IMG/VR virus record: IMGVR_UViG_3300025435_001056
Coordinates: 1 to 64,000 of that record
Direction: 5' to 3' (one strand)
Length of the DNA: 64,000 nt
Origin: a virus
Part shown: positions 6,031 through 31,280 of the stretch, one piece after another
Layout of the letters: every line of letters begins with the position of its first letter
Position numbering within the stretch: position 1 is the stretch's first letter
Notes under the pieces: model-generated
What the model saw: only the letters and a program-made list of their open reading frames with translations
The model's database searches: none
Told to the model about the DNA's origin: nothing
Program-made: the position numbers and the translations under genes

Positions 6031-7164
6031 ATGAAAAATTTCTATTGTGCAGCTCCCTGGCGAGGTCTGCACATTAATCCCCAGGGCGATGTTAAGACCT
6101 GTTGTGCTGGTAATGACAGCATGCTGGGAAATTTAAAAAATCAATCAATATTAGAAATACTCAATGGGCCAGCATTGGGCGAAATACAAGCAAGTATAAA
6201 ACAAGGCATCGCTCACAAATACTGTAATAATTGTGTCAATGCCGAGCTGTTTGGACTCAGCGAACGCAATTGGCACAATGATGTTAATTTAGATTTTGAT
6301 CCAGCTACCGCAAAAATAAACGAACACAGACCTTCTATAGTTGATGTTAGATGGAATACAACCTGTAATTTAAGTTGTAATTATTGTGACGAAGTGGCTA
6401 GTTCCAAGTGGGCTGATATTTTAAAATTTCCTATAGCATCCAACACAAGAAAATATTATGCAGAGGTATGCGACTATCTGGATGAACACAAGGAACACAT
6501 ACGCGAAGTTTCATTAGTTGGCGGTGAACCATTACTCTTGCCAGAAAACGAGCGATTGCTTGAAGTTATTCCAAAAAATTGTCCAATATCGTTGATAACT
6601 AATTTGAGCATCGATCTTGAAAATAATAAAATTTTTAAAAAATTGCTAACAAAAAATCTAGTAATGTGGAAAGTAAGTTTTGAAAATTTAGGTCCGCACT
6701 TTGAATATGTTAGGTATGGTGCCAATTGGAATACACTAGAAAAAAATTTGCAATTGTTGCGTACACTACGCAACATAGGACATGAAGAATCAGTTCATAG
6801 TGTTTATAGTTTGTATAATGCTACACGATTGATAGAATTTGTAGAGTGGATTAAAAATTTAGGATTGAAGATAAACTGGCAAGGATTGTATCGACCTGAT
6901 TATCTAAATCCTTTATTTCATAATGAGCCAATTCGTCAAATAGCAATGGATCAATTGGATCAAGTGCTTGCTAGAACGGATTTGACAACGGTTGAAAGAA
7001 CATTCTTAACACAAACTAGAAAAAATTACAATGTTCCGCAAGAAAAAAATTTAACTGACAAATTTTTAGAATATACTAGCAAACTTGAAACAGATTATCA
7101 TCCTGGTCTATTAGGTCACTTTGCTAAACTTTGGCCTGAAATTTATAATAACATACAGTTTTAA
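6031..7164 (+). CDS. Radical SAM protein with N-terminal SPASM/twitch-like cysteines
   Basis: The 377-residue protein carries the radical SAM CxxxCxxC signature (CNLSCNYC, Cys112/116/119) and a GGEPL SAM-binding segment at 164-168. An unusual N-terminal accessory region has Cys6, Cys24-25 and CNNC at 65-68, resembling a SPASM/twitch auxiliary cluster site placed in front of the barrel. Such enzymes often modify peptides or sugars; the substrate here is unknown. The gene is distinctly more A+T-rich than the gp17 gene after it, suggesting separate acquisition. It lies between the secreted nuclease and the large terminase. No SD is obvious. Confidence 0.82.
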   Translation: MKNFYCAAPWRGLHINPQGDVKTCCAGNDSMLGNLKNQSILEILNGPALGEIQASIKQGIAHKYCNNCVNAELFGLSERNWHNDVNLDFDPATAKINEHRPSIVDVRWNTTCNLSCNYCDEVASSKWADILKFPIASNTRKYYAEVCDYLDEHKEHIREVSLVGGEPLLLPENERLLEVIPKNCPISLITNLSIDLENNKIFKKLLTKNLVMWKVSFENLGPHFEYVRYGANWNTLEKNLQLLRTLRNIGHEESVHSVYSLYNATRLIEFVEWIKNLGLKINWQGLYRPDYLNPLFHNEPIRQIAMDQLDQVLARTDLTTVERTFLTQTRKNYNVPQEKNLTDKFLEYTSKLETDYHPGLLGHFAKLWPEIYNNIQF

Positions 7165-26116: not shown

Positions 26117-26815
26117 ATGATTAAATCTATTGTTGGTTTTGGCGACAGTTGGATGTATGGCAACGAAATTGGTTCCAATGCACCGGGGGATCCAAATCGG
26201 CTGGCCAACTGTATTTTAGGACAGCTTGGCAAAAAATTAAATTTACCTACAGAAAACTTTGGAAGACCCGGGTCGTCTCTGACCAGCATGTTGTGGGAAT
26301 TTGCCAGATGGGCACAAACTGTCGAAGATTCTGCAAAGCACTTGGTTATTGTAATGTTGACTTATGATGTACGTGAAAGCTGGTGGCCAACCGACCAATC
26401 TCGTAAATTGCCAACAATACCGGGACCATATTATGTCGAGCTCAATGACTACGTAGTTAGTAATACAATTTTGGATTCTATTTGGTCCGAGCTTGTTAAA
26501 TTATATGTGTTAGATAGTAATCATGCTGAGTTGTCGGCCATGCGATATTGGCAGGCTGTAAATTTTCTTGACAGTTATTGTGCCCAACATCAAATACCGC
26601 TATTACAAATAAATGTTGCCAGTCCAACTCGACCAATTAGTGTAACTAGTCTATGCAATTACAAAACAGGAATGGTAGAATTACTGCAACAAGAAGCAGA
26701 TTTCACCAAAAAAATATTACATGCTCCCGGCAAACATCCTAACAGCGCAGGTGCCGAATATTTGGCCAATCTGCTAGTAGAACAAATATACAAACGTAAA
26801 CTTTTAAATGATTGA
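26117..26815 (+). CDS. SGNH/GDSL-like hydrolase
   Basis: The 232-residue protein has block I GFGDSWMYG (nucleophile Ser about residue 11), a block II-like glycine in NFGRPGSS, and block V HPNSAGAEYLA with the catalytic His. The residue usually Asp three positions before that His is Gly (APGKHP), so the triad may be a Ser-His dyad or use another acid. The family removes acyl groups from sugars or lipids. It precedes primase with an eight-base overlap and has its own leaderless promoter, so early expression is expected. Confidence 0.72.
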   Translation: MIKSIVGFGDSWMYGNEIGSNAPGDPNRLANCILGQLGKKLNLPTENFGRPGSSLTSMLWEFARWAQTVEDSAKHLVIVMLTYDVRESWWPTDQSRKLPTIPGPYYVELNDYVVSNTILDSIWSELVKLYVLDSNHAELSAMRYWQAVNFLDSYCAQHQIPLLQINVASPTRPISVTSLCNYKTGMVELLQQEADFTKKILHAPGKHPNSAGAEYLANLLVEQIYKRKLLND

Positions 26816-27767
26816 CATAGTTTCTTTTCTTCCTGTTAAACGTAAACAAACTACCAGTGGTTGGATAAGTTTCAACGCACCTTGTTGTATACATCGTGGT
26901 GACACACAGGATCGAAGACAACGTGGCGGTATCAAACCCGGCAATGACGGGTCTTGGTCATTTCATTGTTTCAACTGTGGCTATACTGCTAGTTTTGTTT
27001 TAGGTCGTACTTTAACATTTAAAGCTCGTCGACTGTTAGAGTGGATGAATATTCCTAAAGAAGAAATTGAGAGAATTAATCTTGAAAGTTTAAAACAACG
27101 ATCTATTGCAGGACTGCTCACAGAACGTCAGGCAGTGGCCAATCAGATACAGGGCATTGATTTTGAAGATCGAGATTTACCAGCAGATACACAGACATTA
27201 AATGAACAGGCCAAACAGTATCTTCGTGATAGATGCATAGCCTTGGACTATCCATTTTTGTACAAGACCATGCCACGTCCTGGCATTGTGATTCCGTTTA
27301 CCTATGACAATCAAGTGGTAGGACATACTACTCGTTTTTTAGATGATCGTATACCACGATATATTCAAGACATACAGTCGGGATATGTGTTTGGAACAGA
27401 CCTACAAAAACCAACATGGCAGTCGGTCCTGGTCATGGAAGGTGTATTGGATGCACTCAGTGTCAATGGGCTAGCAGTGCTACACGCAGAAATTAACGAT
27501 GCACAAGTGCGACTAATTCGTAGTCTGGGTCGAGAAGTGATTGTGGTCCCAGATCAAGATGAAGCCGGTATGCGCTTGGTGGATCGTGCAGTGGAATTAG
27601 GATGGAGTGTAAGCATGCCCGAGTGGCCGGTGGGTGTCAAGGATGTAAATGATGCAGTAATTCGTTGGGGACGATTGGCCACATTGCTAAGTATTGTGCA
27701 AGCCCAAGAAACTAGTAAGATTAAAATAGAACTAAGGAAAAAACAACTTGTTAAAAGATTACGGTAA
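26808..27767 (+). CDS. 61: DNA primase gp61-like
   Basis: The 319-residue protein has an N-terminal zinc-binding site (CCIHRGDTQDRRQRGG ... FHCFNCGYTASF). A TOPRIM domain follows, with VLVMEGVLDALS (the conserved Glu) and VVPDQDEAGM (the D-x-D). It makes RNA primers for lagging strands with gp41. Its C-terminus, KQLVKRLR, is encoded by bases that are duplicated at the helicase start. The ancestral form probably ended one codon later and overlapped gp41 directly (see the 27748 insertion). Confidence 0.93.
   Translation: MIDIVSFLPVKRKQTTSGWISFNAPCCIHRGDTQDRRQRGGIKPGNDGSWSFHCFNCGYTASFVLGRTLTFKARRLLEWMNIPKEEIERINLESLKQRSIAGLLTERQAVANQIQGIDFEDRDLPADTQTLNEQAKQYLRDRCIALDYPFLYKTMPRPGIVIPFTYDNQVVGHTTRFLDDRIPRYIQDIQSGYVFGTDLQKPTWQSVLVMEGVLDALSVNGLAVLHAEINDAQVRLIRSLGREVIVVPDQDEAGMRLVDRAVELGWSVSMPEWPVGVKDVNDAVIRWGRLATLLSIVQAQETSKIKIELRKKQLVKRLR
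27748..27764 (+). repeat. 17-bp direct repeat, left copy
   Basis: TTGTTAAAAGATTACGG is identical to 28870-28886, and the match ends abruptly at both edges. The two copies bracket the radical SAM gene. Confidence 0.92.
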
Positions 27768-28857
27768 TTGGTGCCCCGACATTTATCACAATTTATTTGT
27801 TGACCGTCATAATAGCGATTCGATACGAATTGCGCCGTGCTGTGCTTCACAGGCCGCTATTGAACAAATTAATACCTTTAGCTTTGAAAACAATTTGCAT
27901 CTGACTAAATTAAGAAATCAATTTAGAAATAATGAACGCCCGTCAGAATGCCAGGCCTGTTGGGACGCCGAGGATGCTGGTCACCGAAGTCGTCGTCAAC
28001 TTCAAATTGAAGAAAATCCAGCAATTGATAAAATTGATTATGATATAGTACTTACAGGATTAGATCATTCAGCAACCTGGGCGTGTAATCTTGCTTGTAT
28101 CATGTGTGGGCCAATTAATAGTAGTACATGGGGTGCTGAGTTAAAATTAAACAAGGAAGAATTAATAAAATTAGGTAGATATTTGCAAAAAACAAATAAT
28201 TTTGTTGAGGTTCTTGATTTATCAAAGATTACCAAGGTTTATTTCAATGGTGGTGAACCATTATTAAATAATGAACACTTGACTTTAATAGAAATATTAG
28301 ATAAAAAAAATCTTTTAAAAAACGTTTGTCTAAGTTATACTTCCAATGGAACTATTAGTCCTTCACAAAAAGTTAAGGATCTATGGAATAAAGCGCAATC
28401 AGTACAAATATATTTCAGCATTGATGCTACCGAACGGGCATTTAATTATATAAGATGGCCCGCTAACTGGAATATGGTTAATAACAATATAGTAGAATTG
28501 ATAAATTTTTCTAACAACTTAACTGTTGGAATCAATGCAACCGTGGGTAATTATAATGTGTTAGAAGTTATTGATGTGTATAATTGGTTTAATAAAATTT
28601 TACCTGATAGCACTAGGTTGTTTAATTGGCAATTTGCCAATCAACCAAATTACAAACTAGAACATTTGCCAATGGTAGTTAAACATAAAGTGATCAAAGA
28701 ATTAAAAGGCATTGAAAAATTAAACGGAATTGTTAATTATATCAACTCTACCATGGACACCCCGTCAACGAAATTGTGGACACACAATTTTGATCAGATC
28801 GACAATCGCCGAGGAACGAATTGGCGGGAATCTTTAAAAATTGGAAAATATTATTAA
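27748..28857 (+). CDS. Radical SAM protein inserted between primase and helicase
   Basis: The 369-residue protein has CNLACIMC (Cys113/117/120) and FNGGEPLLNN as the SAM site. N-terminal paired cysteines (CC at 31-32, CQAC at 68-71) are arranged like those of the gene at 6031, so both belong to one subfamily. The first 17 coding bases (TTG start) duplicate the gp41 start exactly, so its first six residues MLKDYG come from the helicase. Strong A+T bias and this duplication indicate a fairly recent insertion. SD AAGGA is ten bases upstream. Substrate unknown. Confidence 0.82.
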   Translation: MLKDYGNWCPDIYHNLFVDRHNSDSIRIAPCCASQAAIEQINTFSFENNLHLTKLRNQFRNNERPSECQACWDAEDAGHRSRRQLQIEENPAIDKIDYDIVLTGLDHSATWACNLACIMCGPINSSTWGAELKLNKEELIKLGRYLQKTNNFVEVLDLSKITKVYFNGGEPLLNNEHLTLIEILDKKNLLKNVCLSYTSNGTISPSQKVKDLWNKAQSVQIYFSIDATERAFNYIRWPANWNMVNNNIVELINFSNNLTVGINATVGNYNVLEVIDVYNWFNKILPDSTRLFNWQFANQPNYKLEHLPMVVKHKVIKELKGIEKLNGIVNYINSTMDTPSTKLWTHNFDQIDNRRGTNWRESLKIGKYY

Positions 28858-28869
28858 AAAGGATTTATT

Positions 28870-28886
28870 TTGTTAAAAGATTACGG
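28870..28886 (+). repeat. 17-bp direct repeat, right copy (helicase start)
   Basis: This copy is the natural beginning of the gp41 gene. The left copy lies 1122 bases upstream. Confidence 0.92.
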
Positions 28887-30273
28887 ACTTGAGGTCCAAC
28901 GCCTATTCTTAGAAATGATGTTGCAGGACGCCGAAAGTTATGTGCGTGTACAGAACATCTATAATCCTGAAAACTTTGATAGAAGTTTGCGACCAGCAGC
29001 CGAGTTTATTGCTGAACACAGCAATCAACACAAGACACTACCCACGGTAGAACAGATCAGTGCCAGCACAGGCGTCAAGCTACAGCAGGTTCCAGATCTC
29101 AATGAAGGACACTTTGAATGGTTCATGGCAGAATTTGAACAGTTCACTCGTCGTCAGGAATTAGAACGAGCAATTTTAAAATCAGCAGATCTGTTGGAAA
29201 AAGGCGAGTATGATCCTGTAGAAAAATTAATTAAAGATGCAGTTCAAATCAGTTTAACCAAAGACATGGGTACAGACTACTGGGCGGATCCCAGACAACG
29301 CATCGACAAGTATTTTAATTCAGGTGGGCAGGTATCAACAGGGTGGCCACAGATGGACAAGATTTTATATGGCGGATTTAGTCGTGGTGAATTGAATATT
29401 TTTGCCGGCGGTTCAGGTTCTGGTAAATCCTTGGTCATGATGAACATAGCCCTAAGTTGGTTGCAAGCTGGACTTTCGGGCGTGTATATCAGTTTAGAAC
29501 TTAGCGAAGAACTGTGTGCCTTGAGAACTGATGCCATGTTGGCTGGTATGAGCACAAAGGATATCCGCAAGGATATTGATCAGACTGAACTCAAGGTCAA
29601 GCTGGTTAGCAAGAAAGCTGGACAGTATAGAATCAAAGCCCTACCTGCGCAGAGCAACATCAACGACATTCGTAGTTATATCAAAGAAGTGCAAGTGCAG
29701 ACCGGAATCAAGGTAGACTTTATTATGTGTGACTACCTGGACTTGTTGATGCCTGTCAGTGCCAAAGTCAGTCCCAATGACCTGTTTGTCAAAGACAAGT
29801 ATGTTTCAGAAGAACTGCGCAACCTAGCCAAAGAACTTAATGTGCTGTTTGTCACAGCTAGTCAGTTGAATCGAAGTGCTGTGGAAGAAATTGAGTTTGA
29901 CCATAGTCATATTAGTGGCGGTATCAGTAAGATCAATACTGCCGACAATGTGTTTGGTATCTTCACCAGTAGAGCCATGCGTGAACGCGGCAAGTATCAA
30001 ATACAGTGTATGAAGTCGCGTAGCTCCACAGGTGTAGGCATGAAGATTGACTTAGACTATAACATTGAAACTATGCGTATTACAGATCCCGGAGAAGAAG
30101 AACAAGCCGGAGGATTTAAACGTCCGGGTGGCAACTTGCTGGACAGTATCAAGGCCAAGAGTACCATGCTGTCTTCAGAGCCGCAGGCTAAATGTGAAGA
30201 AGTGGGTAAAATCACAGCCGACGTGCAAAGTGCAAAACTAAAACAGTTATTAGGTCAAATTAAAACAACGTGA
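28870..30273 (+). CDS. 41: Replicative DNA helicase gp41 (DnaB family)
   Basis: The 467-residue RecA-fold hexameric helicase has an N-terminal helical domain (1-130), Walker A GGSGSGKS (180-187) and Walker B FIMCDYLDLL. It also has the DnaB-type TASQLNRS and a C-terminal arginine-finger region (CMKSRSSTGVG). It unwinds the fork and works with primase gp61. TTG start, SD AAGGA at 28859-28863. Its 3' end overlaps the next radical SAM gene (GTGA), linking them in one operon. Confidence 0.95.
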   Translation: MLKDYGLEVQRLFLEMMLQDAESYVRVQNIYNPENFDRSLRPAAEFIAEHSNQHKTLPTVEQISASTGVKLQQVPDLNEGHFEWFMAEFEQFTRRQELERAILKSADLLEKGEYDPVEKLIKDAVQISLTKDMGTDYWADPRQRIDKYFNSGGQVSTGWPQMDKILYGGFSRGELNIFAGGSGSGKSLVMMNIALSWLQAGLSGVYISLELSEELCALRTDAMLAGMSTKDIRKDIDQTELKVKLVSKKAGQYRIKALPAQSNINDIRSYIKEVQVQTGIKVDFIMCDYLDLLMPVSAKVSPNDLFVKDKYVSEELRNLAKELNVLFVTASQLNRSAVEEIEFDHSHISGGISKINTADNVFGIFTSRAMRERGKYQIQCMKSRSSTGVGMKIDLDYNIETMRITDPGEEEQAGGFKRPGGNLLDSIKAKSTMLSSEPQAKCEEVGKITADVQSAKLKQLLGQIKTT

Positions 30274-31280
30274 TACAGTACGAAAACATAAGAAATGTTC
30301 ATTTTGAAATTTCTAGTTTGTGTAATGCAAGTTGTCCATGGTGTCCCAGGACATTTTGGGGGTATCCTCACAACGGTGGATATCCTGAAGTAAATTTTAC
30401 ACTGGATCAGGCAAAAAAAGTTTTCACTACAGATTTTTTGACACAATTGACCAGTATCTATATCAATGGTAATTTTGGCGACATAGTAATGAATCCCGAA
30501 GGTCCGGCCATTGTAGATTATTTTGTGAGGACAAATCCCGATCTGATAATCACAGTCAGTACCAATGGTTCGGCTAGAGATAAAATATTTTGGACAGATC
30601 TGGCCAGCACCGGAGCCACTGTGCAGTTTTGTATAGATGGGCTTGAAGATACACACCACCTGTACAGGCAAAATACTGTTTGGTCTACGGTAATTCGCAA
30701 CGCTCAAACATTTATCAAAGCAGGTGGACAAGCTGTTTGGAAAATGATTCAATTTGATTACAATCAGCATCAAATTGAATCATGTCGGCAGATGAGTAAA
30801 CAGTTGGGATTTATAGATTTTTGTCTGGTAGACGATGGAAGAAATACTGCACCGGTATTTAATCACGCAGGACAACTTACTCATGTGCTAGGAAACTATG
30901 TTGGCGAAAAAAACTTCACAGTTTTATTTCATAAAAAAACAACAGATCAAATACTATTGGAAGATATAATTCAAGATCGAACGCCAGCAAAGTCAATCAG
31001 TTGCCAGGCAAAAAATAATAACTCCATTTATATTTCATCCACTGGCGATGTTAGTCCCTGTTGTTGGACTGGATTTTATCCCAAAACTTACGGTGCCGGT
31101 CAATATCATCAAGCGGCTAACGCTCAGTTGGTTCCATTGATTGTTAAAAATAATGCGCTAGAATATCCATTAAAAGACTGCATTGATTGGTTTAAATCTG
31201 TAGAAGACACCTGGAAAATTGATCGTTACGAGCAGGGAAGATTGGTTATTTGCGACGACGTATGTGGAGAAAAGCAATAA
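30270..31280 (+). CDS. Radical SAM/SPASM protein lacking the GGE motif
   Basis: The 336-residue protein has CNASCPWC (Cys18/22/25) close to the N-terminus and a C-terminal SPASM-like cysteine set (SCQAKNNNSIYISSTGDVSPCCW, then later Cys pairs). Auxiliary Fe-S clusters are therefore probable. The usual GGEP segment is replaced by INGNFGD, a variant that still offers a glycine-rich SAM loop. It starts at GTG overlapping the gp41 stop and is less A+T-rich than the 27748 gene. Peptide or cofactor modification is possible; the target is unknown. Confidence 0.8.
   Translation: MIQYENIRNVHFEISSLCNASCPWCPRTFWGYPHNGGYPEVNFTLDQAKKVFTTDFLTQLTSIYINGNFGDIVMNPEGPAIVDYFVRTNPDLIITVSTNGSARDKIFWTDLASTGATVQFCIDGLEDTHHLYRQNTVWSTVIRNAQTFIKAGGQAVWKMIQFDYNQHQIESCRQMSKQLGFIDFCLVDDGRNTAPVFNHAGQLTHVLGNYVGEKNFTVLFHKKTTDQILLEDIIQDRTPAKSISCQAKNNNSIYISSTGDVSPCCWTGFYPKTYGAGQYHQAANAQLVPLIVKNNALEYPLKDCIDWFKSVEDTWKIDRYEQGRLVICDDVCGEKQ

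Follow-up and report, generated by a model that had tools for sequence, protein, structure and literature searches.

The primase-helicase junction of the window

The window, 64,000 nucleotides long, covers positions 1 to 64,000 of a virus record of 176,632 bp (G000). In it, a radical SAM gene lies between a T4-like primase gene and a T4-like helicase gene, and the sequence TTGTTAAAAGATTACGG is present exactly twice, at 27748 and 28870, each time at a gene start. This exact 17-bp repeat had been reported in the initial annotation and was confirmed at both coordinates. The features of the locus are the following.

26808..27767, plus strand: DNA primase (T4 gp61-like, Toprim), 319 aa; open reading frame matching Toprim_2 and the primase family phrog_47
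27734..27738, plus strand: AAGGA, a Shine-Dalgarno-like motif within the primase C-terminus, identified by sequence and kept in nearly all empty sites
27748..27764, plus strand: repeat copy A, holding the primase C-terminal codons LVKRLR and the radical SAM start MLKDYG
27748..28857, plus strand: inserted radical SAM gene, 369 aa, N_Twi_rSAM, from its open reading frame and family profile
28859..28863, plus strand: new AAGGA motif for the helicase, carried in by the insert, identified by sequence
28870..28886, plus strand: repeat copy B, the helicase start MLKDYG, identified by sequence
28870..30273, plus strand: replicative helicase (T4 gp41/DnaB-like), 467 aa, TTG start, matching DnaB_C and phrog_19

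Within the 64-kb window, no third copy of TTGTTAAAAGATTACGG was found with up to three mismatches allowed, and dinucleotide shuffles gave 0.21 expected matches at that threshold. Outside low-complexity collagen-like repeats, TTGTTAAAAGATTACGG is the longest direct repeat with a spacing of 200-4000 bp in the whole record and, among the 45 longest such repeats, the only one with both copies at gene starts; the same direct-repeat search (200-4000 bp spacing) revealed no other site of this kind in the 176,632 bp. By a simple estimate from base composition, ~0.018 exact 17-mers would be expected to recur 200-4000 bp apart in 64 kb. A chance repeat was rejected.

The primase stop codon of the window, TAA at 27765-27767, comes from the insert and lies immediately 3' of copy A. 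When the block and one repeat copy are removed, the primase ends in ...KKQLVKRLRT-stop and overlaps the helicase TTG, as had been claimed. This native overlap spans 23 nt, from the helicase TTG to the primase TGA, and 17 nt of it are duplicated in the window. In agreement with the initial annotation, the frame at 27748-28857 begins on copy A, so that the radical SAM gene opens on the duplicated helicase start and uses the first residues of the helicase as a leader. On the left it overlaps the primase, and on the right a gap of 12 nt separates it from the helicase. The AAGGA motif at 27734..27738 would originally have been the helicase signal and would now be that of the radical SAM gene. The insert is A+T-rich, as noted earlier, with a GC content of 0.331, whereas the primase has 0.422, the helicase 0.435 and the whole genome 0.438.

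The identity of the radical SAM gene was borne out by a match to NCBIfam N_Twi_rSAM (NF033640), the family of twitch-domain radical SAM proteins to which the window's cargo belongs, with 220.1 bits for a cut-off of 170. The core of the protein starts at NWCP (residue 7), and its cluster motif CNLACIMC occupies residues 113-120. The CxxxCxxC cysteines C113, C117 and C120 are invariant in nine relatives; five further N-terminal cysteines (C9, C31, C32, C68 and C71), candidates for the auxiliary (twitch) cluster, are also invariant and lie in a low-confidence part of the structure model. Comparison with the radical SAM gene of a related locus, L212, gave a dN/dS of ~0.17. The gene appears to be intact and under purifying selection, and its product is predicted to be an accessory enzyme. 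Run against solved structures, the radical SAM sequence profile returned nothing; in a fold search with the low-confidence model, the nearest structures were radical SAM peptide-modifying enzymes and BlsE, with a general likeness.

Other features of the record were observed alongside. An open reading frame at 26117-26815, which starts MIKSIVGFGDSWMYG and overlaps the primase start by 8 nt, is GDSL-like by motif and gave no family match; it is akin in kind to the junction cargo described below. Directly after the helicase, with a GTGA overlap, lies a second radical SAM-like gene (phrog_21308, 30270-31280). Relatives carry different genes after the helicase, so the junction 3' of the helicase may be variable too. 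Positions 86000-99600 of the record consist of long low-complexity repeats, collagen-like or tail-fibre-like.

Alleles with and without cargo at the junction

A junction DNA search of phage records returned distant helicases only, and a protein search with the radical SAM sequence returned only weak Vibrio phage matches; environmental contigs were therefore used. Junctions were collected from IMG/VR with a helicase scan (at least 80 loci) and with a DNA pattern for the primase end, which added more. Merged and made unique, they came to at least 111 primase-helicase junctions, and counts from them are counts in samples. Among the 111 unique junctions listed, 72 were empty and 39 occupied. In 69 of the 72 empty junctions among the matches listed, we observed the predicted single-copy overlap (...AAGGAARAAACAACTTGTTAAAAGANTACGGACTTGA...), in which primase ...LVKRLRT-stop runs over helicase MLKDYG for 23 nt with a TTG start. 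The exact TTGTTAAAAGANTACGG occurred in 64 of these 69 overlaps listed, with variation in those at most at position 12. An enlarged set of 226 junctions, enriched for cargo, gave the same picture: all 75 long-overlap empty junctions used TTG, and 74 of the 75 held exactly one copy. The empty-site comparison proposed in the initial annotation thus yielded common single-copy relatives with exactly the predicted sequence. Relatives do not all carry the gene with both repeats, and gene-less relatives do not keep two copies.

Close pairs of occupied and empty junctions (L166/L185, L122/L124 and L120/L003) agree into the 17-mer, diverge, and resume agreement at copy B, the breakpoints falling inside the 17-mer or at its edge. 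No population of near-identical phages differing by the cassette alone was found among the IMG/VR junctions listed, where the closest empty relative of the window has 84% helicase DNA identity. Three cargo-free junctions (L038, L052 and L057) have a short non-overlapping spacer and an ATG helicase start and are possibly scars of cargo loss. The duplicated length varies: L004, L074 and L168 also repeat the upstream AAGGA, and elsewhere copy A is partly replaced. A sister clade, with helicases ~67% identical, has the same slot and the same cargo; the overlap there is short and the start is ATG. The slot is therefore probably older than the long (17-nt) overlap, a relative dating taken from this clade comparison.

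Cargo families, borrowed start and split overlap

The proteins of the occupied junctions (39 loci among the matches listed) fell into 11 sequence-similarity clusters. Radical SAM genes (12) and GDSL/SGNH-like genes (20) were counted among the matches listed, and the further cargo comprised a B12-radical SAM gene, a homing endonuclease gene (L047) and others, mostly without a family. The predicted fold of the GDSL-like protein matches TesA and GDSL lipases with a Foldseek probability near 1. The homing endonuclease, at L047:5301-6011 in the primase-helicase slot, is of the GIY-YIG/NUMOD3 type (phrog_314, E = 3e-17). Cargo GC was lower than that of the locus's own helicase in 44 of 46 and in 56 of 58 loci.

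The first cargo gene starts on the old helicase TTG in 34 of the 38 loci with a called cargo gene among the matches listed, and this borrowed start was seen across several unrelated cargo families. The conserved core of each main family begins about seven codons in, at NWCP for the radical SAM proteins and at KLWVFGDS for the GDSL-like proteins; the residues ahead of it are the overlap read in that frame (MLKDYG, MSNDYG, MLKEYN and so on). At the other end, many cargo genes stop within the helicase start, with TGT TAA inside TTGTTAA. In L062, L067, L088 and L150, the cargo ends in ...AKRLRT or AKRIRT, which is copy B read in the old primase frame, and the GDSL-like protein has thereby gained the C-terminal tail of the primase. 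L067 and L148 are tandem, with a second cargo gene that starts on a third copy of the module.

The main families were tied to this position. Profile searches blind to location placed the radical SAM subfamily only at the primase-helicase junction (54 of 54 unique loci), and for the GDSL-like family the best 80 of 115 matches all lay at this junction as well. In six large virus records, the radical SAM subfamily occurred once in each of the four that hold it in the slot and was absent from the other two, the other radical SAM profile matches in these records reaching at most about 150 bits. The NWCP-core junction subfamily is present once per genome at the slot, beside up to ~14 more distant N_Twi_rSAM-type matches. 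Many radical SAM profile matches were seen in G000 and in the records of L035, L212, L274, L330 and L336, in up to 15 stretches per record; in G000, at least two further matches lie near 6157 and 118632. No member of the cargo family turned up when bacterial genomes were searched with a close pattern.

We then compared the two copies of the split overlap. In occupied loci, the divergence of copy A follows the primase frame and that of copy B the helicase frame. Primase-synonymous changes made up 135 of 309 in copy A versus 12 of 87 in copy B (p = 1.5e-7, ignoring shared ancestry), and helicase-synonymous changes 27 of 309 versus 35 of 87 (p = 6e-11, again ignoring shared ancestry). The helicase starts with ATG in none of 69 empty and 23 of 39 occupied junctions among the matches listed (Fisher p = 2e-13, ignoring shared ancestry). 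Shared ancestry inflates these substitution and start-codon counts. Phylogenetically independent pairs gave 10.7 for the shift to ATG and 1.4 against (median p = 0.012).

Copies A and B are identical in the window and also in L212. The radical SAM cassette of L212 is 73% identical to the window's, with a dS of ~1, and its copies A and B are identical to each other and differ from the window's at position 12 only. Identity in both loci could also reflect conversion of one copy by the other or a slow pace of change under constraint, and the perfect 17-bp match in the window does not by itself prove a recent insertion. Copies A and B agree for T or C at position 12 in 18 of 27 cases versus 8.5 when shuffled; this is weak evidence, because the loci are related and a change between T and C at this position is synonymous in both frames.

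Probable exchange at the slot and alternative explanations

On a helicase tree of 105 rows, occupancy changed 32 times (at least 21 on supported branches), compared with 31.7 times with shuffled labels. The junction appears from these comparisons to be an ancient, very labile cargo slot rather than a one-off insertion site. Turnover of the cargo itself is rapid: between helicases 95-98% identical, the median cargo identity was 62% for radical SAM and 55% for GDSL-like proteins, and in L067 and L070 the helicase flanks are 99% identical in DNA while the cargo is 54% identical in protein. Cargo is uncoupled from its flanks, and it is from this uncoupling that we infer exchange. The initial annotation had read the locus as an insertion in which the new gene captured its start codon from the target. 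The capture of the helicase start stands; a single insertion by a duplicating process does not, as the slot is recurrent and holds many kinds of cargo. The duplication is best read as a gene overlap split in two, present as two copies because both neighbouring genes need its sequence, and not as a target-site duplication of the transposition type.

We consider it probable that these large tailed phages keep, between primase and helicase, a long-lived slot for exchangeable cargo, moved by homologous recombination. In the clade of the window, empty junctions consist of the 23-nt gene overlap, and occupied ones hold cargo between a left copy, with the primase tail and the start signal, and a right copy, with the start of the helicase. 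Cargo placed just past the overlap takes over the ribosome-binding site and TTG of the helicase and supplies a new helicase signal. Alleles would pass between co-infecting phages by the phages' own homologous recombination or break repair, of a T4-type, UvsX-dependent kind (the record encodes UvsX), with crossovers in the primase, in the helicase or in the overlap itself. In the window, such a transfer into an empty recipient, together with dual coding constraint, would account for the 17-bp identity. A stronger version seems rather doubtful to us, namely that the conserved overlap (AAGGA...CAACTTGTTAAAAGANTACGG) is a dedicated exchange site and plug-in start module, that single-gene cassettes without a recombinase of their own circulate on it among many phage species, and that the tandem arrays of L067 and L148 reflect reuse of the module.

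Other explanations were weighed against these data. In an intronless or collaborative form of homing, a free-standing endonuclease at or near the junction would cut empty alleles, and repair would copy the occupied allele with its cargo. Homing is established in T4 relatives (PMC2993671), the L047 junction holds a homing endonuclease, and the record of the window encodes a GIY-YIG protein (75330-75566, minus strand); nevertheless L047 is the only one of the 39 occupied junctions listed with an endonuclease, its gene lacks the borrowed start, and the window's cassette encodes none, which makes homing unlikely. A history of loss only, in which ancestral cargo was repeatedly deleted by recombination between the 17-bp copies and the overlap restored, is improbable. 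Two repeats would permit clean deletion, the slot of the sister clade is also occupied, and the scarred ATG junctions (L038, L052 and L057) suggest that losses happen. However, a near-identical overlap with TTG would have to be rebuilt dozens of times from occupied loci that had moved to ATG in 23 of 39 cases among the matches listed and whose copy A had diverged at many positions, and the decoupling of cargo identity from flank identity would require exchange anyway.

It is highly improbable that transposition, or site-specific integration, left a target-site duplication of 17 bp here, even though the insert is flanked by exact direct repeats. The insert holds the radical SAM gene only, with no transposase or integrase, and its inverted repeats are internal rather than terminal; moreover, the duplicated length varies among loci, a single genomic position is used, the sister clade has the same cargo without such a repeat, and the main cargo families were found at no other site (for the GDSL-like family, in the best 80 of 115 matches). 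A transposable element with target-site duplication was accordingly rejected, with no transposase, no terminal inverted repeats and one site. Barely credible is a likeness of the copies due solely to separate coding constraint, on one copy as the end of the primase and on the other as the start of the helicase. The sequence is indeed required by both neighbours, and 64 of the 69 empty overlaps listed vary at most at position 12; yet in empty relatives one copy does both jobs, and in occupied loci each copy changes in the frame no longer needed.

The slot resembles known systems in part. In related T4-like phages, short shared sequences situated between core genes (PeSL) are thought to provide homology for the shuffling of accessory genes (PMC4503421). 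The breakpoints within the 17-mer in close pairs may reflect a similar use of homology. Unlike the PeSL described there, the shared sequence here is a coding overlap with a ribosome site and a start codon. The PeSL cassette is defined by an early promoter and a stem-loop terminator at the gene boundary, and our scans found no plus-strand terminator-like or promoter-like site at the junctions, the promoter scan covering the sigma-70-type consensus only. Like the free-standing homing endonuclease genes of T4-like phages, single genes are present or absent here at one core-gene junction, and recombinational copying is likely in both (PMC2993671); unlike those elements, the cargo consists mostly of enzymes without an endonuclease, a radical SAM enzyme in the window, with L047 as the exception. 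Junctions between core genes and imported DNA in T4-like phages typically bear no resemblance to known mobile-element signatures (PMC2993671). The cargo also differs from a moron, defined by its own promoter and terminator, as it overlaps the gene on its left, leaves 12 nt on its right and has no plus-strand terminator-like site. In T4 itself, the interval from gene 61 to gene 41 holds variable genes (61.1 to dmd). The primase-helicase interval tolerates accessory genes in both cases; the genes of T4 differ, and we know of no duplicated overlap in its gene 61-41 interval.

Modular gene exchange in phages is already known, and the slot is a new form of it; in the open-licence literature, we found no report of cargo inserted where two genes overlap. 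For the entry of accessory genes into the tightly packed replication region of T4-like phages, this junction offers a base-exact signature, with dozens of natural empty and occupied replicates and several independent cargo families at one place. It is also a natural experiment on overlapping genes, in which a dual-coded segment becomes two single-coded copies, each evolving under one frame, and in which the helicase start shifts from TTG to ATG after the overlap has been lost. Across a large family of aquatic phages, the overlap between primase and helicase, two essential replication genes, has repeatedly taken in unrelated guest genes.
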